From: a virus
Strand: one strand, 5' to 3'
Virus record (IMG/VR): IMGVR_UViG_3300032282_004590
Location: 1 to 39,336 of that record
Length of the DNA: 39,336 nucleotides
Both the position numbers and the translations under genes were made by a program. Below the pieces are notes generated by a model. It did not search any database. It saw only the letters and a list, made by a program, of their open reading frames with translations, and was not told where the DNA came from. Below are positions 19,960 through 32,247 of this stretch, in pieces. Each line of letters opens with the position of its first letter. Within the stretch, counting starts at the first letter, position 1.

Positions 19960-20265
19960 TCAAAATTCGCGGGCCCAAAACGCCTCGAGCGCCTCGGCCA
20001 ACTTGGTCTCGTGGGTCTCCATCGCTTCGCCGCCGGCGCGCGAGATCCACACTTGGCCCGGCGCGCCGTGATTGATGGTGAACGCTCCAACCTGCAGCCT
20101 GGTCGGCGTGATGATGCGGAAGTCTTGAATTGGCGCCGCGAGCCGCAGCTTGCCGTGCGCCGTCTCAAAATCGGCCCAGACCGTCCCGCGGCCGACCCGC
20201 ACCACGTGGCCCGCGCGGTGCTCGCGCAGATCCACTACGTCGCCGACCTTGGGCACGGAACTCAT
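19960..20265 (-). CDS. Small beta-rich protein next to the methyltransferase
   Basis: 101 aa, ATG at 20265, ATGA overlap with the methyltransferase stop. The N-terminal half (VGDVVDLREHRAGHVVRVGRGTVWADFETAHGKLRLAAPIQDFRII) looks like a small beta-barrel (SH3/KOW-like) and the C-terminus is helical (ETKLAEALEAFWAREF). It is translationally coupled to the methyltransferase. Its function is unknown. Confidence 0.65.
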   Translation of the reverse strand: MSSVPKVGDVVDLREHRAGHVVRVGRGTVWADFETAHGKLRLAAPIQDFRIITPTRLQVGAFTINHGAPGQVWISRAGGEAMETHETKLAEALEAFWAREF

Positions 20266-21056
20266 GCGGCGGCCTCCTCGGCTTCGACGCGTTCGAGAGA
20301 CGTGCCACCCCAGCCAGAAATGGCCGCCTGGGACCAGTCATTCGCGGCGAAAAATGCCGAGGAAAAACCAGCCGGCGTGACGCTCCGCGCCGCCTTGGTT
20401 TTCTCGGACTTGCCGCCGAGCTTCTGCAGCCAAGATCCTTGGGCGCAGAGCTTGATCGGCTCGACGCGCCGCAGCTCCGGCACATTGAAATGGCCCCACA
20501 ACTGCGTGCGCTTCGTGTACGCGTTCGCGCGCTTCACCAACTCGACCGCCTGGGCGCCGAGCTGCTCGCGCTCCTCGAGGCTGAGAGCGCGCAATTCCTC
20601 GAGACGCACCCAATCGGCCGCGGTCATGTCGGGCGCCCAGCCGGAGAAATCGCAGGGATCAAATTGCAGCCGGGCCTTGCCGATCGCCGGCACCAGCCTG
20701 GGCAAGCGGCCCACGGGGTTCTCGATCACCCACCAATCCGGCTTCCAATACTCGACGCACCGCAGCACCTGGCGCACCAGTTCGACGCTGGCACGCGTGC
20801 GGCCGTCCCGATCTTTCTGGCGCCAATACTGCGCGCCGCTGTTGGTGAAATCGGTGCACGGCGGCGCGGCCACGATGGCATCCACCCACTCGAGGCCAAA
20901 CTCCTCCTGGAAAAACTCCACGGACAGCCGGCGCACATCCATCAAGCTCGGCTCGAGCTTCACGTCGAACTGCACGACGTTGTGCCCAGCCTCGGAAAAC
21001 GGCCGCGTCCATTCGCCGGTGAAATCAAACAGGGAGAGGATGGTTTTCGGCTCCAT
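20262..21056 (-). CDS. DNA (cytosine-5) methyltransferase, solitary phage type
   Basis: 264 aa from the ATG at 21056, just after the stop of the MerR-like gene. Motif I is LSLFDFTGEWTRPFSEAGHNVVQFD (a FxGxG variant, about 9-31). Motif IV is VAAPPCTDFTNSGA with the catalytic Cys67, and the ENV motif is WVIENPVGRL (about 110-117). The target-recognition part is short. Methylation of phage DNA to C5-methylcytosine protects it from restriction or labels it for replication. No restriction endonuclease gene is nearby, so it is a solitary enzyme. Confidence 0.88.
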   Translation of the reverse strand: MEPKTILSLFDFTGEWTRPFSEAGHNVVQFDVKLEPSLMDVRRLSVEFFQEEFGLEWVDAIVAAPPCTDFTNSGAQYWRQKDRDGRTRASVELVRQVLRCVEYWKPDWWVIENPVGRLPRLVPAIGKARLQFDPCDFSGWAPDMTAADWVRLEELRALSLEEREQLGAQAVELVKRANAYTKRTQLWGHFNVPELRRVEPIKLCAQGSWLQKLGGKSEKTKAARSVTPAGFSSAFFAANDWSQAAISGWGGTSLERVEAEEAAA

Positions 21057-21057
21057 G

Positions 21058-21279
21058 TTAACGGCCGGCCGGCTCGAGCTCGACGCTCCAAGACCGTTGA
21101 ATCTCCTCGACGCGTGAAGCGCTCCACCGCGCTCCTTTGTGGCCGCCACCTGGCACGATGTAATCGGGCCCGAGCAGCTGGCCGGTGTCTCTCATCGCCC
21201 GCAGGCGATTCTCCCCGACCTTGAGCAATCGCACCAGGTCGGCGAACGTGTAAAGTTGCTGCGCGGTCTTAGCGTGCAT
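21058..21279 (-). CDS. MerR/excisionase-like DNA-binding protein
   Basis: 73 aa from the ATG at 21279 (MHAKTAQQLYTFADLVRLL). The segment FADLVRLLKVGENRLRAMRDTGQLLGPDYIVPGGGHKGARWSASRVEEI matches the excisionase/MerR-family winged helix: helix, turn, recognition helix, then a wing ending at a W-SASRVEEIQ. It could be an excisionase or an early regulator; the integrase lies on the other side of the repressor. It overlaps the previous gene by 11 nt. Confidence 0.75.
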   Translation of the reverse strand: MHAKTAQQLYTFADLVRLLKVGENRLRAMRDTGQLLGPDYIVPGGGHKGARWSASRVEEIQRSWSVELEPAGR

Positions 21280-21499
21280 AGACCAAAAATTCCAGTTCGA
21301 GCACCCGTTGCGCTGCGCGCCGGCTCGAGTAGTTCCCCTGATACACTCGCAAGGCACTGCGCGAGGCATCCACCGGCGCCGCGATCGTCCAGCCGCCGCG
21401 AGGATGGCGCACCACCTCGAGAACTGCCAACGGGCCCAGCCGCGCGGGCCGTGATGCCGGCGCGGCTGGGTGCTTGGTGCTTTGGGCGAACGCTACCAT
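21269..21499 (-). CDS. Small protein of unknown function
   Basis: 76 aa, ATG at 21499. It is basic and contains a short beta-rich part (LGPLAVLEVVRHPRGGWTIAAPVDASRSALRVYQGNYSSRRAAQRVLELEFLVYAR). The end resembles small RNA- or DNA-associated phage proteins but no family was recognised. It lies between the DUF2958-like gene and the MerR-like gene. Confidence 0.6.
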   Translation of the reverse strand: MVAFAQSTKHPAAPASRPARLGPLAVLEVVRHPRGGWTIAAPVDASRSALRVYQGNYSSRRAAQRVLELEFLVYAR

Positions 21500-21996: not shown

Positions 21997-22209
21997 TCAG
22001 GCGCCCGAGGCGCTGTTCTCTCGGCTTCCAGTGCCGGCCGCGGACTCGGCAACCGCCGCAAGCGGTTCCTCGCCGCGCAGCCGTTCCTCAATTTCCTGCT
22101 CGAGGGCCAAAGCGTCGGCCGCCACGTCGAGCTCGACGCTGCGCGAGCGCCGCGTCACCCGGGCGAAGTTCCGAACACCTTCCCAAAATGCGCGCTGTGC
22201 TTGGGTCAT
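21997..22209 (-). CDS. First gene of the early minus-strand operon, small helical protein
   Basis: 70 aa, ATG at 22209. It is rich in Arg, Glu and Ala and likely helical (MTQAQRAFWEGVRNFARVTRRSRSVELDVAADALALEQEIEERLRG). It diverges from the repressor across the operator-like region. It is the position of a Cro in many temperate phages, but no helix-turn-helix is evident. Function unknown. Confidence 0.55.
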   Translation of the reverse strand: MTQAQRAFWEGVRNFARVTRRSRSVELDVAADALALEQEIEERLRGEEPLAAVAESAAGTGSRENSASGA

Positions 22210-22225
22210 GTCGAAACGGGATAAT

Positions 22226-22286
22226 TACCAAATCGGTATGGTCAAGAAAACTTGTGGACTATTTGAAGATTTCCCGTATCGGTATG
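22226..22286. promoter_or_regulatory. Operator/promoter region between early operon and repressor
   Basis: TACC-AAATC-GGTA (22226-22238) is an interrupted inverted repeat. The 9-bp sequence ATCGGTATG occurs at 22232-22240 and again at 22278-22286. These overlap the start of the repressor gene and the upstream region of the early operon. On the minus strand TTGACC (about 22239-22244) is a reasonable -35 box, with an AT-rich stretch (TAATTATCC) downstream as a weak -10. This fits a repressor-controlled divergent promoter pair. No binding was tested. Confidence 0.5.
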
Positions 22287-22858
22287 CCGTGAGTCGTTTT
22301 ACTCGGACCTACCTGCAGAGCCTGGCTGACGCCGGCATTTCGAAAACCGCGGCCGGTGAGCTGTCCGGATTGAAGCAGTCCGTGATTTCTCGGCTCCTGG
22401 CCAACGAGCGGCCGGTTTATGGCGACCACATGCGCGCGATGCTTCGGGCTTTGCCTTTGCCCCTCCAGGAGCAATGCCTGCGGGCCTGGCTGGTCGATCA
22501 ATGCCCGGACGATTTAGGCGCGCGCCTGGTGCTGCATTTCGGCGATCCGACTATTCACGCCATGCCGATTCGCGACGATCTCGGCCAAGCGCTTGCCGTC
22601 CTCGAGGATCACGCAGCCAGCCAGAAGAACGACGACCTCAAGCAGGTGCTGATGTACCTAGCCAAGATGGTTGGGACGTCGGGGATCCATTCCGTCGAGG
22701 AGCCAGGCGGTTACTTGTCCCAGACTGGCTCCGAAACCACGCCAAGCACTGTATCCGTATCAAAACGCGCTGGACGAGCGCTCGGGGCCAAGACATTGAG
22801 GAAACTTCACGCTGACGCCCACCACCATCTAAACCCACCATCCAGTCTTGCCCAATGA
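22238..22858 (+). CDS. Cro/CI-type phage repressor
   Basis: 206 aa from the ATG at 22238; a GTG at 22289 is an alternative and neither has a Shine-Dalgarno, so the message may be leaderless. An in-frame run to 21977 contains no plausible start region. The helix-turn-helix lies near residues 22-70 (RTYLQSLADAGISKTAAGELSGLKQSVISRLLANERPVYGDHMRAML), HTH_3-like. A central helical part with LRAWLVDQCPDD and MPIRDDLGQALAVLEDH follows. The C-terminus is polar and does not show a LexA/S24 peptidase Ser-Lys motif. The stop overlaps the next gene by ATGA. It probably holds the early minus-strand promoter silent in lysogeny. Confidence 0.75.
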   Translation: MVKKTCGLFEDFPYRYAVSRFTRTYLQSLADAGISKTAAGELSGLKQSVISRLLANERPVYGDHMRAMLRALPLPLQEQCLRAWLVDQCPDDLGARLVLHFGDPTIHAMPIRDDLGQALAVLEDHAASQKNDDLKQVLMYLAKMVGTSGIHSVEEPGGYLSQTGSETTPSTVSVSKRAGRALGAKTLRKLHADAHHHLNPPSSLAQ

Positions 22859-23358
22859 ATCGATTCGGCCCGGAGGTTGAACGGTCAATTCGAGCAGCCA
22901 AACAGTGCGGAGCAAAGGTCTCCGTTTTCGATGATGATGGCCATTTGTTATGGTTCTGCGACAATTGGCAGACCGATGTGGGAAAACTGGAGCAGTGGAA
23001 CGTGGCGCTCGGATTGGGTTGGCTGGAGTTTGTTCATCACGACGATCTCCCCAATGTACAAAAGTGGATCCGGGCGACAAAGTGCGCGACGATCAAAATG
23101 CGGACACACTCTGGAAAACCCGAGGGGGGATGGGTTGCTGTCGTCATGACCAAAAAGCGCGTCGGCCGCTATTGGCTCGCTGTTGGCGACCGCAAACCGA
23201 TTACCAGTGAGATCGATTGGGCATCCTATGCTCCCTGGGGTGTAATTTCAGCCGCGGCCGCGCTGGGCTCGGCGCTTTCGCATGGCGAAATTGGCCTCGG
23301 ACTTTCGCTGTCTCGAACTCAGTGCATGTTTGGTGGACCTGGGCCCTTATCCACATGA
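22855..23358 (+). CDS. PAS-like domain protein in the lysogeny operon
   Basis: 167 aa, ATG at 22855 (ATGA overlap with the repressor stop). Residues about 19-113 fit a PAS fold: VSVFDDDGHLLWFCDNWQ (first strands), LGWLEFVHHDDLPNVQKWIRA (the 'W-x-x-x-V-H-P-D-D' motif, here VHHDD at 60-64), IKMRTHSGKPEGGWVAVVMTKKR and YWLAVGDRKPI. The C-terminus (PWGVISAAAALGSALSHGEIGLGLSL) is weakly hydrophobic and may anchor it to the membrane. It is co-transcribed with the repressor and a small membrane protein. A role as a sensor that feeds the lysogeny decision, or as a host-altering moron, is inferred. Confidence 0.65.
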   Translation: MNRFGPEVERSIRAAKQCGAKVSVFDDDGHLLWFCDNWQTDVGKLEQWNVALGLGWLEFVHHDDLPNVQKWIRATKCATIKMRTHSGKPEGGWVAVVMTKKRVGRYWLAVGDRKPITSEIDWASYAPWGVISAAAALGSALSHGEIGLGLSLSRTQCMFGGPGPLST

Positions 23359-23600
23359 AAAAAATCTACTACTACGCAACCGCGGCGGCAGTGGCCGGCG
23401 CGCCGGTTGGTTGGTTTGTCGGCGGTTTCCTGGCAGCTCAGCGCCTCGATCGGATCGATTTGGCGATCTCCTCGAGCTTTGCCGTTTCTCGGCCCATTTA
23501 CCTGCAGGGCTCCTATCCTGGGCACGCCTTGGCGGCCGCGGTCCTTGCCGCCGTCGTCGTCAGCCTGGCCGAGCTCGGCCGCGGGCAGGCTCGACAGTAA
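23355..23600 (+). CDS. Small membrane protein, third gene of the lysogeny operon
   Basis: 81 aa, ATG at 23355 (ATGA overlap with the PAS-like gene). A longer in-frame start at 23217 would overlap it heavily and is not preferred. Two hydrophobic segments are clear: residues about 5-26 (YYYATAAAVAGAPVGWFVGGFL) and 55-72 (HALAAAVLAAVVVSLAEL). The protein is probably in the inner membrane and might interact with the PAS-like protein. It could also be a superinfection-exclusion type protein. It ends eight bases before the convergent integrase stop. Confidence 0.65.
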   Translation: MKKIYYYATAAAVAGAPVGWFVGGFLAAQRLDRIDLAISSSFAVSRPIYLQGSYPGHALAAAVLAAVVVSLAELGRGQARQ

Positions 23601-23607
23601 GGCGGCG

Positions 23608-24828
23608 CTATCCGGCGACCTGCAGAGGCGTGTAGGGCATTTTCGCGCCCATGTAATAGCGATCGGTGGTCCGCTGCGTGGAATGTCTGGCAAACTCCTT
23701 TGCCGCGCCGGCGCCGTGGGCCAGATAGATTTGGGTAATCGCGTGGCCGCGGGCCCTGTATGCCAGCTTGCCATTGATCCGCTCGACTCCACACGTCGCG
23801 ATGTACGCGTTTATGCGGCGGTAGCAGGTCTGCCAGCGGTCATGCTCGGAAAGTCCCTCAACGATGAAAGCCGACGCCTTGGGCGCGGTCTCGCTTGAGC
23901 GGATCAGCTTTGGCAGGTTCGGATCGATCTCAACCCAGCCGTCCCGCCCTTTGGGCTCAAACGTGCCATTGGTGCTAAGGTCAATGAAGGTGCGGCCGTC
24001 GACCGTACCGATCCAACCCCACCGCGCCTCGAGGATCTCGCAGTTTCTCAGGCCGGCGTGCAGCATGAGCATGATGGCGGCGTAGGTGGCCGGCTCCTGT
24101 TCTTTCAGCTTCGGAAGGCCGGCGTGAATCGCCTCGATCTCCTTGGGACTGAAAACCTGCGGCGGCGGCGCCGGCCGGGCATCCAGGCCGAGCTCCGTGG
24201 CGAACGCGCGCGCGGTGTCGGGGATCCTGAGTCCCGAGTCCTGGAGATACTGCACGGCCCGCCTCGAGAATACCGATTGCGCGTTGGCGAGGATCTGGTT
24301 CCGGCTCCGCTTGCGGCGTTCAAACTCCTCCTTCTGCTTTGGCAGGAACTGCAGCGCGGCCGCCCGCTTCTGCTCCTCGAGCCATTGGCGCGCCAGCTTG
24401 GAGTCGATCACGTCGATACTCAACGCGCGCACGTCGGCGGTCGGGTTCATGTCCTTCACGATTTGAGTGAGCGAGGCCACGTTGCGGTGGCGGGTGCGCT
24501 CCTTGCCGTGCTCCCACGCCTCATATTTGTCAAAAACTTCGCCCAATTTCTGCCCATCTTTCCCCGGGTTGGTGCTGACCATCGGCGCCAATGTGGTCTG
24601 GATCCCGGCCAGGAAACGCTGCACCACCGGCTGAGCGCGCACGATCGCGGTCCGGAGATCCGTGGTCCGCATCGACTCCTTGAGGGTGAAATCCCGCTTG
24701 GTGATCGGGTGCCTGGCAGACTTGCGGATCCAGTAGGTTCCACGCTTCCCGCTGGGGCGCAGACCGAGAAAATCGGCCCACTGCACCAATCTCTGCTGGG
24801 AAGCGCCTAGCACCTCGGATTCCGTCAT
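23608..24828 (-). CDS. int: Tyrosine site-specific recombinase (integrase)
   Basis: 406 aa from the ATG at 24828. An upstream in-frame start at 24888 adds a hydrophobic run that is unlikely. It has an arm-binding N-terminal part, a core-binding domain (VFDKYEAWEHGKERTRHRNVASLTQIVKDM, about 99-130) and a catalytic domain. Active-site candidates are Arg261 (MLHAGLRNCEILEARW), Lys293 (FEPKGRDGW), Arg360 (YRARGH), His382 (FARHSTQRTTD) and Tyr391 or Tyr392 (DRYYMG). In the usual H-x-x-R box the first His appears replaced by Tyr (YRAR). It catalyses recombination between attP, which lies about 100 bp upstream of its start, and a host tRNA-Asn gene. Confidence 0.9.
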   Translation of the reverse strand: MTESEVLGASQQRLVQWADFLGLRPSGKRGTYWIRKSARHPITKRDFTLKESMRTTDLRTAIVRAQPVVQRFLAGIQTTLAPMVSTNPGKDGQKLGEVFDKYEAWEHGKERTRHRNVASLTQIVKDMNPTADVRALSIDVIDSKLARQWLEEQKRAAALQFLPKQKEEFERRKRSRNQILANAQSVFSRRAVQYLQDSGLRIPDTARAFATELGLDARPAPPPQVFSPKEIEAIHAGLPKLKEQEPATYAAIMLMLHAGLRNCEILEARWGWIGTVDGRTFIDLSTNGTFEPKGRDGWVEIDPNLPKLIRSSETAPKASAFIVEGLSEHDRWQTCYRRINAYIATCGVERINGKLAYRARGHAITQIYLAHGAGAAKEFARHSTQRTTDRYYMGAKMPYTPLQVAG

Positions 24829-24929
24829 GCCCCCTACTTGGGCAGAAGTTGGGCAGACGACCAGCCAAAAAACGCCAAAAAACGCCAAACTCTAAAACCC
24901 GCCCTACCCCTGTTTTACCTCTGAAAGAA

Positions 24930-24976
<47 letters not shown>

Positions 24977-25053: not shown

Positions 25054-28000
25054 CTAGGGATGTTCGAAGGCTTTTGACACGTCGCCCACGGCGCGGCCCT
25101 GGGCTTTCCAGGTCGACGGCTTGGCGTCTTGCATCATTTCGTAGTTCGGCTGCCACACCTTGCTGTGCCAATAGCTCAGTTCCGCGAGACGCCCGGCCTG
25201 CACCGGCGTGCGGTTCTCTTTCTGGATCGCGTTGAGCCGATAGTATTCGCCGAGGAGCCGGTTCACGTTATCGGGCATCGCCAGCCGGATCTTGGCGTTT
25301 CGGGTGTCGAGCGTTGCCTCGAGAGTGCGCTGGCGCTCGCGCAGGCCGGCGTCCGTGATCTTTATGGCGCGCGAGATCACCGGAGCGCCACCAATGAGGT
25401 GCTCCTGCCAGGTTTTCGCATTGGGATCGATTCGGACGAAGTTGCCCCCGCCCACTTGGTCCCACGTGTAACCGATCATGCCTCTGAGCGCGGCCCAGCT
25501 GCCGGCTTGGAACTGCGTCGACGAGAGCACCGGGTTGCCGCGCAGCTTGTCCCGCGGATTCACTCCATCGGCGTAATCCTTCCAGCTCGAGGCCAGCGTA
25601 AACACCGGGTTGATGCCTGGCGCCATTCCGCCGGAGAAGTTCACCAGATTGGAGAGTGATGCCTTGGCGGCCGGATCGTCGCCCGTGGCGGCGGCCTGCA
25701 CAAGGTAGTGCACCACGCCACCGAGGAGCTTTGCGGTTTCGTCTTCTGGGATCCGGATGCCGGCCGACTTGTAGCCGAAATCGCTGCTGCCGTCGTGCAC
25801 CGTGCCCATCGGCATAATCAGATAGTTGGCTTTATCGTAGTCGCTCCAGGCATCATAGTATTTCTTGAGCCCGGCCCCGAGCACTCCGGCGGCCGCAAGA
25901 GCCTGGAGCAGGCGCGGCGCCAAGGTGCGCTCGGCCATGCGGCGCCAATAGGAAAACTTCTGCGCACGTGGATCGATCGGCACACCTGGGATCTTCCCGC
26001 GGGCCTGCTGCACGTCCGCCTCGAGGCCGCGCATGAAAATGTTGATGAAGGGAAACACCGTCCCATCCCAGACCGTCCACTTGCCGCGCTTGGTGAAGTT
26101 GGGCGTTCCGACGTGATTGCGCACGAAATAGGCCGCCTGCTGGGGCGTCCAACCAAGTTCCCGAGTGAGCACCCGATAGGCGCCCATCTTGGGCATGGCT
26201 TCCGCGGTTTGGCCGGCAAACTCGATCTTATCAAGCGCAGCACCCAGGCCCGGAACTTGGCCGACCCATTTGCGGAGCGCCGCGCCGTGCTCGGGCGATC
26301 CAGGCGTGAGCCGATAATCTGCGAGCATCTTGCCCCAAACGTCGTCTTGCATCGGATTCGATGCGAACGACTCAAACGGCGTGGTGACGCCGCGCTGCAC
26401 AAGGATCTCGATGGCCAGGGCGCGGTCGTCGAGCAGGCGCCGCTCGGCGGTCTCCTCCGGAGTCAGCTTGCGCCGTTGCGCCAAGGACCGCAGCTGCCGG
26501 CGGCGCTGCAGTTCGGCCCCCTCGAGATCGTTCAGTAACCTCGCCCGGGCCCCGCGGTGCGCGCGCAGCTGCTCGCCAATCCAGTGCCGGCGCTTCACAC
26601 CATCCGGCAGCTTCACGTAGGACCGGGAAAGATCGCGGATCGGATTGGCCCAGAGCTGGAAGGCGGGATTGTAGGTGATGAAAGCCGGATAGAAAATGTT
26701 CCGGAAAGCCCAATTGGTGACACCGATGATCGCGTGGGCCGATGCCGGGTCCGAGCGGTCGAACATGTCGGAGATCTCCGGGTCGACGTGCCATGAAACC
26801 GGCCGGCCCTTGTCCATCACGATCAACTCCCGCTTGCCTGGCAGCGGTGCCTTGGCGCGAAACATGAGCTTGCCGTTGGCCAGTGGGATCTTGGAGACAG
26901 GCGCCAAATCAATTTCGTCGGGGAAATGGCGCGTGAGCAGTTGCACCGTCACCCGCTTGGCCTGGTTGAGCTCGGCAAACTTGTTTGCCGTCAGCATCTT
27001 GATGGCCGTGGCGAGGAACGGATTGGCCACCTCGCGCAGCGTGCCGCGCTGTTGCTTGAACGCCGCCGGGATATGGGGGGACTGCTCGAGGAAATCGACG
27101 ACCGCAAACGTTGCATATTTGTACCGATTCACCCGCGCGAGGGCCAACTGAGAATCGGAATAGATTCCGGACGCATGACCGCGCTCGATCACCTCGAGCG
27201 CGAGATCCTGGAAGCGCCGTGCGGCCTGTTCCATCGCCTCGAATTGGGCCGGGCCCATCCGATAGCGCATCACCAGCAGTTCACGCCGGGCGGTCAGTGG
27301 CGTGTGGCCCATCGGATTCGCAATGGTGCCGCGCCCGGCCATTTGATCACCCACCAGGTAGCTCTCGTGCGCAATGCGATTGAAAAATAGGAAGTCTCCC
27401 AGCGTGGCATCGTCGATGCCCAAGTCCTCGAGGGGAGAGAGCACCGTTTTCTGTACCCGATCGAGGAAACGATAATTGGCGTTTTCCGAGAACGGATGAG
27501 CGTCGAACACAAATTCAGGATCCTGCCACCACGGCAGATTGGCGCCGGCGGCGCGCGCCTGGCGGGCCCGCTCGATGATCGGGGCGTAGATGTTAAAATG
27601 CTTCTGCTTGAACCGCTCGAGGATCACGCGCAGCGAGTTGCGCCGGGCATCGCGTTCGGCAGCCTTGGCCAGCAGGATCTCCTCGGCCCTGGCAAAGCCG
27701 GTGCGCACGTTGCCAAGCCGCTCGGCGCTGACGGCTTTCGCGCCTTGGTGCAGTAAATCCCACGTGCCGATCAGCTCGTTTTTCACCTCGGGTTTTCGGT
27801 CGAGGTAGTTGAAGAACATTTGCCACGCAGTCGGGGCGCGCTCGCGAAACTCGGCCGGCGCGTTGAAAAGGACGCTCAGCGCGTCGGCATAGATTTCCAC
27901 CGAGCTGTCCCGGTAGTTCATATATCCCGGGTTATCAGGGGCCGCGATGGGGCGCCACCAAAACGAAAGGTTCTTGAGTTCCGTGCCCACGTCTCCCGCG

Positions 28001-31000
28001 CCTACCACATCAGCACCGCCCTCAACCTTGCGGCCGCGGGATACCACCAGGCCGCGGGCCTCGAGCGCGTTCTGGAGCAGCTCCGAATAAACCTTACGCA
28101 CCTCCTGCTGCCATGCAGCCAGATCCGCCTCCTCATCCTTTTCCGGCCGTGCGCCCACCTGTTTTTCCGCCTGGCGGCGCAGTTGCTGGCGCTCCTTGGG
28201 CGTCAGCGTCGAGTGCGGGCTGTTGGGATCGATCGGCAAACTTTGGGCGAGGTACTCGCGCAAGGTGGCGAGTCGGCCCAAAAGGTTTCCCCGCTTGAGC
28301 GTGCGATCCGGAAGATAATCGATCAGGTGCCCGATCTCGTGCGCCAGCGTTTGATTTGCCATCGCAAAATCGGTGAAGATCCGACGATCCAGCACGATCA
28401 TGCCACGGCCGGCCGCCCGCATGAATCCGCGGGAGCGCGGCAGATTCCGCAGCTTGGGGATCTCGCCGGCCAGCTGCTTCACGAGATCCACGAGCTCGGG
28501 CATTTCCACCGGTCGCACAAGGTGCATTTGCGCGAGCGGCTGAGGCACCGGCGTCTTGTCAAACGACGTGACGTAGTGCGTCGGAGCCGGCGGGGTTTCC
28601 GCAGGCAATTGCCCTTCTTCCGCGACCCTAGTAGCACGAGCACGCTGCGATCCATAGATCGTGTCAAGGTGCGGCGCTTCGTTCACCCAGCGTAAAGCTT
28701 TTCCGACGCCATTCGTGAGGATCAAATCGTTGATCACCCCTCGGGCTTGGAGCGCACGCGCGACGTCGCCTACTGCCTGATTGCCGTCGTAGTATCCGAT
28801 CAAATAAACCGCCCCAACACCTCGAGCCAATTCATGCAGGTGTTTCGGAAAGTCGGGATGCGCCAAATCGGTCGCGTTGACTGAACCGGTGCCCACGATC
28901 ATTGAGCGATTGCCAAAAAAGAATACCGTGAGGTTGCGCTCGGCGACTTGTAGTTCGTATCCGATTCGCACCGGATCATCACCCTTGAGTATTTCTCGGC
29001 CCAAATATGGACTCGATCCTTGGACTGCTAGAGTTGGATCCCACTTGTTCTCGTAGCCAGGGAGAACCTGCCCCATAAATGGATCTCCGGTGGGGTAGAT
29101 CACAGTGTAGGAGCCGTGATTTATGACGTAATGCCGCTTGAAGTCCTTGGGGAATTTCTCAGCTATCGCTCTCGTAAACATTAGGTCCGCTCGGCTCGGA
29201 TCTGGTCGGCCGCTCGGGTGATTATGGAGGACATCAAAGGTCGTCCATTTGACGGCCGCGCGGTGTTCCTGAAACCGCTTTTCCCAATCAGCGCCCAAGT
29301 CGACGGCGTTCGGCAGCCGCGAGCTCAGCGCCATCGGCGTCAGGAGTCGGCCATCGCGGTCATAAGGCAGGATCCAGAACGTCTCGACGTTGCGATTTCG
29401 CAGCACTTGGGCGGCGCTGATCAATTGCGCTTCGCTCTTAAACTTCCGGCCGGTGTGCGCAAGAAATCCATCGGCCAAAAAAGCCTGCGTGTAGAGGCGG
29501 GACTCGAGCTGAATGCCGCCAGGCTGCGGACCTACGTTGGCGTTGGGTAGCGGCGCGACGGATCGACCCACCCCGAGCAGTTCGGTTTGCCCGATTTGTC
29601 CACGTGGTAGGTTGTGCGTGAACTGTCCGGATTGATTACCTCGATCCGTGTCCCCGGCAGGAGGGGCGTCGAATGCTTTTGCCAATGCTGCATCTGTTGC
29701 GAGGTCCAACTCAAGCTGCCGGGCGAGCTTTCGCTCCCAGACTCCGGCGATGATACCTCGGACGGCTGAACGGGTGACCGGATTTGTGACGCTTCGGGCA
29801 TTGAGGTAGCTTTTGACGGTCCGCTCAAAGAGGGAGAACTGGCCCTCATTATCAGTGGTCGGGCCAAAAAGGTCAACCTGTGTTGCGAGATCAGCCGCTT
29901 TGATCGGGGCGGCGGCGCGGCGCTGCATTTCCGCCTTTCTGAGCGTTTCCTCATCACCCAGGGACGTAGGCCGACCTGATTTCTCGGTGCTGTAAAAATC
30001 GAGGAAGTCTTGCCCCAACCCTTTTTCCACGTCGTCAAGCTCGGCTTGGCCGGCGGCCGTCAACTTTCCCTCTTTCTCGAGCGCGCGCAGCTGCAGGTAG
30101 CGCGTGTGCGCGGCAGCATACTCGTTGGTTTCTTCGAACATTGCTCCTTGGTTGGGATCTTCCGGCGGGACGGCCGGCGGCTCCGGCGCGGGCTCGTCGG
30201 CCACCGGCAGGCCGGCGGCTCGGCGCAGTTCATTGAACGTGGCGGCGTCGGGCGCTTGGTAACGCTCGATTTCGCCCTGCAGTTGATCGATGCGCGCCTG
30301 GAGGGCGGCGGGATCATCGACTGGCAGACCCATCTTGCGGGCGGCCTCGGGCCGGCGGGCGGCGCCCTGGGCGGCCAGCACCAGATCGCGCTTTTGGCTG
30401 ATCAGGTCTGCCTGGACCTTGGAAATGGCGGCCGCTTCGCGCTCGAAATCCGCAAACGAAGTGTCGACCCCAGCAAATCCCAGCTGATCACCACTGCCGG
30501 CCTTTGATGTCAGCTGGCCGAGGTTTCGCACATAGAGCTCGAGCTCGGCAGCGCTCTTGGTTTTGGCCGCACGGATGCCGCTATCCTGCGCCGGCACGTT
30601 GCCTGGCGCTCCCCGGGCAATGGCTACTGCTTTGCCTTCGGGGATTTGGTCGTTGGCGTAGAGGGAAAAAAGACCATCGGTGGCATCTTTTCCAAGGTGC
30701 CAGCCGGAATTTGCCTTAACGCCTCGTAGTAAGCCTCGCGATTGGGCCGCTTCTTTGGTGTAGGTTGGGTTGATCCGGAAGTAGTGGGCATAGTCTTTGA
30801 TTTCTCCTTGGCCGTCACGGATGTTGCTCTCTGCGTCAAAAGTAAGGGCCATCGCCTTCGTGAATCCATCCGATTCTTTCACCACCTGGGCGGGGATGGT
30901 TTTCTCCCCGGTGCGGCGCGCGAGGTCGAGGCGGTGCCGGCCGGTGATCACTTCCTTTTCGCCATTGGCTTTCTCCCAGACGACGATCGGGGCGGTGCCG

Positions 31001-32247
31001 AGTCTTTGGTAGGAACCCTGCAGCGGTTCCACCACGCCGGTTTTGGTGTCCCCGGATCCCTTGAATTGCGGAACGTCCTTATTGACCACGATGCCGTTGA
31101 TCTCGAGATCGCGCACGGGATGGAGTTGCGGCTCAATAATGGTCGTCGGCTCAGGCGGCGCTTCCGGCGCTTCCGCCTGCTTGGCGAGCGCGACCAGCTG
31201 CTCATCGGGCACCTCAGTGATCGGCGGCGCCGCGGCCGCGGGCGGAACGGGATCCGGATTTGCCGGCTCGGTTTGGTTGCTGGCGGCGGGCGGCGCTTCG
31301 GGAGCCGGCACCCGCGGCGGCAGTCCGGCCCGCTGAGAAAACTCTTGCTCGGCGCTCTGCGCCGGGACAATCGGCGCTTCGGGTGCGGCCGCGTCTGGCG
31401 TCGTTGCAACGGGCTGCTCGGCCGCGGGCGTGACGTTCTTCGGTTCCGGCTTTTCCGACGCGATCTTGTTGCGGACCGCATCGACGAGCTCGGCATCGGT
31501 TCCCTTGAACCCCTTGAACTCAGGCGTCGCACGCACCTGTTTGAGGACGGCCCGGCGAAGGGCCATGCTTTCGGCGGTGCCAGCCGCGGCACCGAAGATG
31601 AATCCCAAGGCGCCGGTCGTCGCCAGCCGGCCGAGATTGACGTCCTTCTCGTCGACCAACTGACCCAAAAGCTCGGCGGCGGTCGAGATTCCAGCTCCTT
31701 GAACACCGCGGCGAACCACATTGGCGGCCATCTTGGCTGTCTGCGGTCCCATTGGAACAGCACCGGCACCAATCGCGCCCAGCAAACGGCCCTCGCCGAC
31801 TTGATCACGCTCGCCACGGAAATACTGACGGGCCTGCACCAAACCTTCGCCAAGACCGGATCCGGCTGCGCCGCCGGCCGACAATCCGACCAAAGCGCCA
31901 GGACCGCTGGGCGCGGTCACGGCACCGCCCAGGATTGATCCTCCGACCGCGGGGATGATCCCGGCGGCCACATCGCCAACGGCCCCGCCTTGGGTCAAAA
32001 GCGCTTTTACAATCGCGCTTCCGCCGGGGACTGCTGGCGCCATGACATCCGAAATCGCCTCGGCGATCGGGGCCCGGGCCTTCTGTTTGGTTTCAACGGC
32101 GAGTTTCGTGGCTTCTTCGTCGCCCAGGTAACCCTGCTGCGCGGCCACGCCGAGCAGCTGATCGTCGGACAATTCATCGACTGCAGGAAAGCCGGCGGCC
32201 AGGAGCGACAGTTCCCGGTCGCTCAGTTCTGAAATTGGCTTCGGCAT
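25054..32247 (-). CDS. Very large polyvalent protein (ParB-like, JAB/RadC-like, HExxH and LPD38-like modules), likely ejected with DNA
   Basis: 2,397 aa, ATG at 32247, one base after the stop of the upstream gene. The N-terminus is helical. A glycine-rich hydrophobic region (about 75-230, GGSILGGAVTAPSGPGALVGLSAGGAAGSGLG) could cross a membrane. A ParB/sulfiredoxin-like nuclease module lies near 370-560 (NGEKEVITGRHRLDLARRTG). A JAB/RadC-like metalloprotease fold lies near 920-1060 with HNHPSGRPDPSRADL (about 1008). A zinc-metallopeptidase HExxH (LAHEIGHLIDYLPDRT) is near 1300. The C-terminal 550 residues begin near ANPIRDLSRSY and match large polyvalent-associated domains of the LPD38 type. 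Such phage proteins are packaged and injected and may counter defences. This gene closes the ejection-protein block. Confidence 0.85.
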   Translation of the reverse strand: MPKPISELSDRELSLLAAGFPAVDELSDDQLLGVAAQQGYLGDEEATKLAVETKQKARAPIAEAISDVMAPAVPGGSAIVKALLTQGGAVGDVAAGIIPAVGGSILGGAVTAPSGPGALVGLSAGGAAGSGLGEGLVQARQYFRGERDQVGEGRLLGAIGAGAVPMGPQTAKMAANVVRRGVQGAGISTAAELLGQLVDEKDVNLGRLATTGALGFIFGAAAGTAESMALRRAVLKQVRATPEFKGFKGTDAELVDAVRNKIASEKPEPKNVTPAAEQPVATTPDAAAPEAPIVPAQSAEQEFSQRAGLPPRVPAPEAPPAASNQTEPANPDPVPPAAAAPPITEVPDEQLVALAKQAEAPEAPPEPTTIIEPQLHPVRDLEINGIVVNKDVPQFKGSGDTKTGVVEPLQGSYQRLGTAPIVVWEKANGEKEVITGRHRLDLARRTGEKTIPAQVVKESDGFTKAMALTFDAESNIRDGQGEIKDYAHYFRINPTYTKEAAQSRGLLRGVKANSGWHLGKDATDGLFSLYANDQIPEGKAVAIARGAPGNVPAQDSGIRAAKTKSAAELELYVRNLGQLTSKAGSGDQLGFAGVDTSFADFEREAAAISKVQADLISQKRDLVLAAQGAARRPEAARKMGLPVDDPAALQARIDQLQGEIERYQAPDAATFNELRRAAGLPVADEPAPEPPAVPPEDPNQGAMFEETNEYAAAHTRYLQLRALEKEGKLTAAGQAELDDVEKGLGQDFLDFYSTEKSGRPTSLGDEETLRKAEMQRRAAAPIKAADLATQVDLFGPTTDNEGQFSLFERTVKSYLNARSVTNPVTRSAVRGIIAGVWERKLARQLELDLATDAALAKAFDAPPAGDTDRGNQSGQFTHNLPRGQIGQTELLGVGRSVAPLPNANVGPQPGGIQLESRLYTQAFLADGFLAHTGRKFKSEAQLISAAQVLRNRNVETFWILPYDRDGRLLTPMALSSRLPNAVDLGADWEKRFQEHRAAVKWTTFDVLHNHPSGRPDPSRADLMFTRAIAEKFPKDFKRHYVINHGSYTVIYPTGDPFMGQVLPGYENKWDPTLAVQGSSPYLGREILKGDDPVRIGYELQVAERNLTVFFFGNRSMIVGTGSVNATDLAHPDFPKHLHELARGVGAVYLIGYYDGNQAVGDVARALQARGVINDLILTNGVGKALRWVNEAPHLDTIYGSQRARATRVAEEGQLPAETPPAPTHYVTSFDKTPVPQPLAQMHLVRPVEMPELVDLVKQLAGEIPKLRNLPRSRGFMRAAGRGMIVLDRRIFTDFAMANQTLAHEIGHLIDYLPDRTLKRGNLLGRLATLREYLAQSLPIDPNSPHSTLTPKERQQLRRQAEKQVGARPEKDEEADLAAWQQEVRKVYSELLQNALEARGLVVSRGRKVEGGADVVGAGDVGTELKNLSFWWRPIAAPDNPGYMNYRDSSVEIYADALSVLFNAPAEFRERAPTAWQMFFNYLDRKPEVKNELIGTWDLLHQGAKAVSAERLGNVRTGFARAEEILLAKAAERDARRNSLRVILERFKQKHFNIYAPIIERARQARAAGANLPWWQDPEFVFDAHPFSENANYRFLDRVQKTVLSPLEDLGIDDATLGDFLFFNRIAHESYLVGDQMAGRGTIANPMGHTPLTARRELLVMRYRMGPAQFEAMEQAARRFQDLALEVIERGHASGIYSDSQLALARVNRYKYATFAVVDFLEQSPHIPAAFKQQRGTLREVANPFLATAIKMLTANKFAELNQAKRVTVQLLTRHFPDEIDLAPVSKIPLANGKLMFRAKAPLPGKRELIVMDKGRPVSWHVDPEISDMFDRSDPASAHAIIGVTNWAFRNIFYPAFITYNPAFQLWANPIRDLSRSYVKLPDGVKRRHWIGEQLRAHRGARARLLNDLEGAELQRRRQLRSLAQRRKLTPEETAERRLLDDRALAIEILVQRGVTTPFESFASNPMQDDVWGKMLADYRLTPGSPEHGAALRKWVGQVPGLGAALDKIEFAGQTAEAMPKMGAYRVLTRELGWTPQQAAYFVRNHVGTPNFTKRGKWTVWDGTVFPFINIFMRGLEADVQQARGKIPGVPIDPRAQKFSYWRRMAERTLAPRLLQALAAAGVLGAGLKKYYDAWSDYDKANYLIMPMGTVHDGSSDFGYKSAGIRIPEDETAKLLGGVVHYLVQAAATGDDPAAKASLSNLVNFSGGMAPGINPVFTLASSWKDYADGVNPRDKLRGNPVLSSTQFQAGSWAALRGMIGYTWDQVGGGNFVRIDPNAKTWQEHLIGGAPVISRAIKITDAGLRERQRTLEATLDTRNAKIRLAMPDNVNRLLGEYYRLNAIQKENRTPVQAGRLAELSYWHSKVWQPNYEMMQDAKPSTWKAQGRAVGDVSKAFEHP

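Follow-up and report, generated by a model that had tools for sequence, protein, structure and literature searches.

A stand-alone protein of 167 residues, very probably a PAS protein as judged from sequence comparisons, is encoded directly behind, and coupled to, the putative lysogeny repressor gene of the virus analysed here, an IMG/VR record of 39,336 bases whose whole length is called the window below. Whether this protein forms part of the lysogeny switch, as a separate sensor or effector that modulates the neighbouring repressor, seems to us an evenly balanced question. Two unrelated kinds of phage, the group that includes the window and a Mu-like prophage, have the PAS gene immediately after a small gene, which in two cases encodes an HTH protein. 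Across these loci the PAS protein is conserved, and no relationship among its upstream partners can be detected by sequence. The arrangement suggests, without proving, that this protein informs the virus, a temperate phage, of the time to leave its host.

The genes in question are three plus-strand open reading frames (ORFs) at 22238-23600 that overlap in series, with ATGA at 22855-22858 and again at 23355-23358, an arrangement that the earlier note had described and that the ORFs and both overlaps bear out. The first encodes a Cro/CI-type helix-turn-helix (HTH) regulator and likely lysogeny repressor (22289..22858, plus strand; 189 aa from the GTG at 22289, with the ATG at 22238 as an alternative start), the second the PAS-like protein (22855..23358, plus strand; PAS core at about residues 20-117), and the third a membrane protein of 81 aa (23355..23600, plus strand). 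Convergent with this operon lies a tyrosine integrase gene (23608..24888, minus strand; phrog_1 E=2.3e-9), and divergent from it a set of early genes on the minus strand, whose first ORF encodes 70 aa (21997..22209) and which includes a gene for a small HTH_17/excisionase-like protein (21058..21369, minus strand; phrog_66 E=0.015), conserved by synteny in the related phages G001, G004 and G009. A DNA methyltransferase-like gene (20262-21149; phrog_757 E=4.5e-46) also belongs to the early set. Farther along the window, the minus strand at 25054-32247 holds an ORF of 2397 aa, a very large phage protein with Pfam segments that are RadC-like (above threshold) and ParB_N-like (sub-threshold).

Adjoining the integrase gene is a 47-nt stretch corresponding to the 3' half of a tRNA-Asn (24930..24976, minus strand), which is likely the attP site. 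It is matched exactly in 16 of 388 Verrucomicrobiota genomes, and the three loci scanned at the match each contain a tRNA-Asn(gtt); ARAGORN found no full tRNA in the window. The match fits a Verrucomicrobiota host without proving one, because tRNA-Asn is conserved, and the relatives of the phage terminase in the same 388 genomes are distant only.

The N-terminal HTH of the regulator is matched by Pfam HTH_3 with E=5.6e-4, below the curated cut-off. The Pfam search found neither an S24 nor any other protease domain in this protein, in agreement with the earlier note, which had seen no S24-type self-cleavage motif, and on its sequence the regulator is not classed as a self-cleaving repressor of the CI/LexA type. 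With its gene divergent from the minus-strand early genes, it would be, as we infer, the master lysogeny repressor of the phage. Single-protein scans of viral contigs and genomes yielded no relatives of this HTH protein, and a scan of the 388 Verrucomicrobiota genomes, run without a positive control, gave no match to it. The start had earlier been placed at ATG 22238. The sequence makes GTG 22289 the more likely start, because the 17 codons at 22238-22288 are GC-poor (GC3 of 0.41 vs 0.69 in the remainder of the gene) and overlap operator-like repeats, and because the GTG stands just ahead of the HTH.

These repeats, located between the divergent genes, are two 16-bp copies on the plus strand, TTACCAAATCGGTATG at 22225..22240 and TTCCCGTATCGGTATG at 22271..22286, which are 81% identical (13/16) and have in common the 9-mer ATCGGTATG, of which both strands of the 39 kb contain no further occurrence (its second copy is at 22278). 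A possible third copy, inverted, at 22207..22221 on the minus strand is 80% complementary and may be due to chance. The two copies suggest candidate operators without proving them, because an identity of 13/16 was matched in just 1 of 400 shuffles but also in 11 of 197 tiles of the window. No promoter consensus was found between the divergent genes.

The assignment of the 167-aa protein to the PAS family comes from its relatives. Taken alone, it has no family match (the best in Pfam is CHASE, E=0.34; PHROGs, NCBIfam and PADLOC give none), and PAS_3 (PF08447) does not match it. A profile of five aligned cores, those of the window protein and of four relatives (from G001, G004, G005 and locus L068), has as its best PDB matches ARNT2 (E=5e-4), ARNT, HIF3a and NPAS1, with BMAL1 lower, all of them PAS proteins. 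The same profile weakly matches large sensor proteins, including kinases, in Verrucomicrobiota genomes, and in all five that were scanned with Pfam the matched stretch overlaps PAS_3; other weak matches were not readable as clear genes in the loci retrieved. When the family profile was compared with these kinase PAS domains by hhalign, a probability of 98.3 (E=2.5e-14) was obtained, and an HMM of the kinase PAS domains scores 25.4 bits on the window protein, where 1000 shuffles reached no more than 11.0; this test is mildly circular, since the kinase domains were picked as matches of the family profile. An HMM made from another four PAS domains missed the window protein. The resemblance to PAS_3 of sensor histidine kinases covers the same sequence region and its WLxxVHxxD stretch, present here as WLEFVHHDD; unlike the kinase domains, the phage proteins stand alone with 124-167 aa (L068 and the window, respectively), without a kinase or output domain, lie beside phage regulators and fall below the Pfam cut-off.

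It could be argued that the protein has some other small alpha/beta fold and that the likeness comes down to a short W-[LI]-E-F-[VI]-x-x-x-D motif, of a kind that can occur in unrelated structural proteins. Besides the failure of the window protein to match any family, such an argument can draw on structure prediction: AlphaFold2 run on the five-row alignment gave a model of low confidence (mean pLDDT 49; 32 in a single-sequence run), for which neither Foldseek (best E=0.11) nor VIA-align returned a trustworthy match. However, the profile matches extend past the motif and the best ones land on PAS domains, and the L068 protein by itself weakly matches four Pfam PAS families (best E=0.0029), so that a fold other than PAS appears very unlikely. 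The stretch WLEFVHHDD, whose VHHDD the earlier note had seen, is confirmed; the PAS-like call of that note gains from the profile comparisons, whereas the PAS fold as such, a five-stranded sheet in which helices lie between strands 2 and 3, draws no support from structure prediction.

Related phages were chosen by their terminase and their whole records were searched. This yielded PAS relatives in three members of the group, G001, G004 and G005 (E from 7e-7 to 6.5e-5), and a genome scan with the aligned cores added one more, in a Verrucomicrobia metagenome-assembled genome (the relatives are recorded as loci L062-L064 and L068). Single-protein scans of viral contigs and genomes found none, tblastn of a phage collection returned no PAS relative, and searching viral contigs with a DNA pattern for the PAS motif recovered only unrelated proteins or members already known. 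In every case found, the PAS gene sits tightly behind some upstream gene.

The L068 contig (L106) encodes a MuA-type transposase (phrog_310 E=2e-15) and Mu Gam (PF07352 E=1.8e-28), which mark it as a Mu-like prophage. Its PAS gene shares 17 nt (7917-7933 of L068) with an HTH gene (HTH_3 E=3.5e-7) that precedes it. The two diverge from the transposase genes and from a gene for a small HTH-like protein, and they occupy the position that the repressor has in Mu. The same prophage holds thyX (L106 12487-13161; PF02511 E=1e-50).

The gene ahead of PAS in G001, G004 and G005 belongs to another family, A6 (161-178 aa), for which no credible known domain was found; a reading of the G001/G004 partner as a ribbon-helix-helix protein was dropped, RHH_1 having matched another gene and no structure match having emerged. 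About 8 nt separate the A6 stop from the first usable PAS start close to the core (ATG in G004, TTG in G001). Likewise dropped was the idea that frameshifting fuses PAS to its partner, as the frame relation varies between loci. The early gene set and the integrase of the window are common to G001, G004 and G009. In G001 the A6-PAS pair heads the operon, across from the early genes, whereas in G004 it comes last, adjoining the integrase, as if it moved as a unit. In G009, a close relative, an HTH gene (HTH_26 E=1.2e-6) occupies the same place without a PAS gene. Homology among the upstream HTH proteins of the window, L068 and G009 did not rise above shuffles. Two further observations concern these phages: the G004 operon with the PAS gene also holds an ArdA antirestriction gene (L085 12148-12675; PF07275 E=2.5e-19), and downstream of the switch region of G009 the last ORF has long low-complexity repeats of the LDLDRDLA type (L088 19198-19963).

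The third gene of the window operon behaves otherwise. Its 81-aa product has one clear hydrophobic segment at about residues 54-77 (mean hydropathy 1.9) and, as read from the sequence, a second, weaker one near the N terminus; the earlier note had called it a two-helix membrane protein. No relative of it occurs among the fetched loci, and the three-gene order was not found elsewhere. The membrane gene is part of the operon here and of no conserved unit, and is probably incidental. The proposed tie between the PAS protein and the position of the lysogeny switch is supported by the HTH-PAS pair of the unrelated Mu-like prophage and by the tight placement behind another gene in three related phages.

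The PAS protein and the HTH repressor would, under the reading that we favour, be made together from the coupled genes, in amounts that the coupling suggests would be matched, and the PAS protein would probably bind the repressor. Occupation or alteration of the PAS pocket would then change dimerisation of the repressor or its DNA binding at the divergent promoter, providing a route to induction without RecA-driven self-cleavage. The signal could, as the earlier note proposed, be redox state, a ligand or light. The PAS-HTH contact, the direction of its effect and any ligand are elements that we infer. What is observed in favour of a sensor subunit is the gene coupling, the PAS-type similarity, the lack of a cleavage domain, the occurrence of HTH and PAS together in a second, unrelated prophage and the tight placement in three more phages; the joint displacement of the A6-PAS pair and the operator-like repeats between the divergent genes speak for it too. 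Against it count the small number of cases, namely two independent HTH and PAS pairs and one clade with A6, whose DNA-binding nature is not recognised, as well as the HTH of G009 without PAS, the failure of PAS_3 on the window protein alone, the miss by the four-PAS HMM, the pLDDT of 49 and the lack of any visible cofactor-binding signature.

PAS domains often act just as protein-protein interfaces, and the protein might instead be a ligand-free module that senses nothing, a dimerisation or scaffold subunit acting as co-repressor or antirepressor for the neighbouring regulator. Consistent with this, no cofactor-binding signature was seen, the cysteines of the window protein are not conserved in the aligned relatives, and the G001 and G004 versions apparently start with the first strand and lack an N-terminal cap; we give this explanation a modest chance of being right. 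As a moron, the PAS protein might, possibly jointly with the membrane protein, target host signalling in the lysogen and owe its place only to the repressor operon being on in lysogens. The operon context would permit this, and the PAS gene (GC 0.56, GC3 0.58) lies below its neighbours in composition, as a recent arrival might. Yet in every phage that was found, the unrelated Mu-like prophage among them, the PAS relative comes immediately after another small gene, and the A6-PAS pair stays together when its position in the operon changes, which leaves the moron unlikely.

For a regulatory subunit of the switch, the nearest known system is VqmA of phage VP882, a PAS and HTH receptor that switches on the antirepressor Qtip, which acts against cI (PMC8284805; PMC12802170). 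Both place a phage-encoded PAS domain in lysis-lysogeny control, as an induction route beside SOS. VqmA is one polypeptide, whereas here PAS and HTH are separate ORFs, with the PAS gene coupled to that of the HTH regulator and putative repressor, and no Qtip-like gene was identified. Adjacent small genes also bring about SOS-independent induction in the TF-smORF modules of linear plasmid phages (PMC10432266) and with phage LuxR receptors (PMC6456758), and repressors that cannot be cleaved are said to depend on additional factors (PMC10432266; PMC6456758). The likeness to these systems lies in the adjacent small genes; in TF-smORF modules a transcription factor activates a small antirepressor gene, whereas here a sensor-type protein would be co-expressed with a putative repressor. 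A search of the open-access literature turned up no description of stand-alone PAS proteins within lysogeny operons.

More broadly, and tentatively, the stand-alone PAS proteins of Verrucomicrobiota phages may be exchangeable sensor subunits. In both integrating and transposable phages they would join with regulators, of HTH type or other, that are not homologous to one another, and would offer signal-driven induction to non-cleavable repressors; we regard this generalisation as possible rather than probable. How prophages with such repressors choose induction is mostly unexplained, and a co-expressed PAS subunit would, if the proposal is true, supply a sensing part that can be tested. In these environmental bacteria it might then be a chemical or redox cue, and not DNA damage, that sets off induction, and one PAS family with changing upstream partners would represent modular exchange in lysogeny switches.
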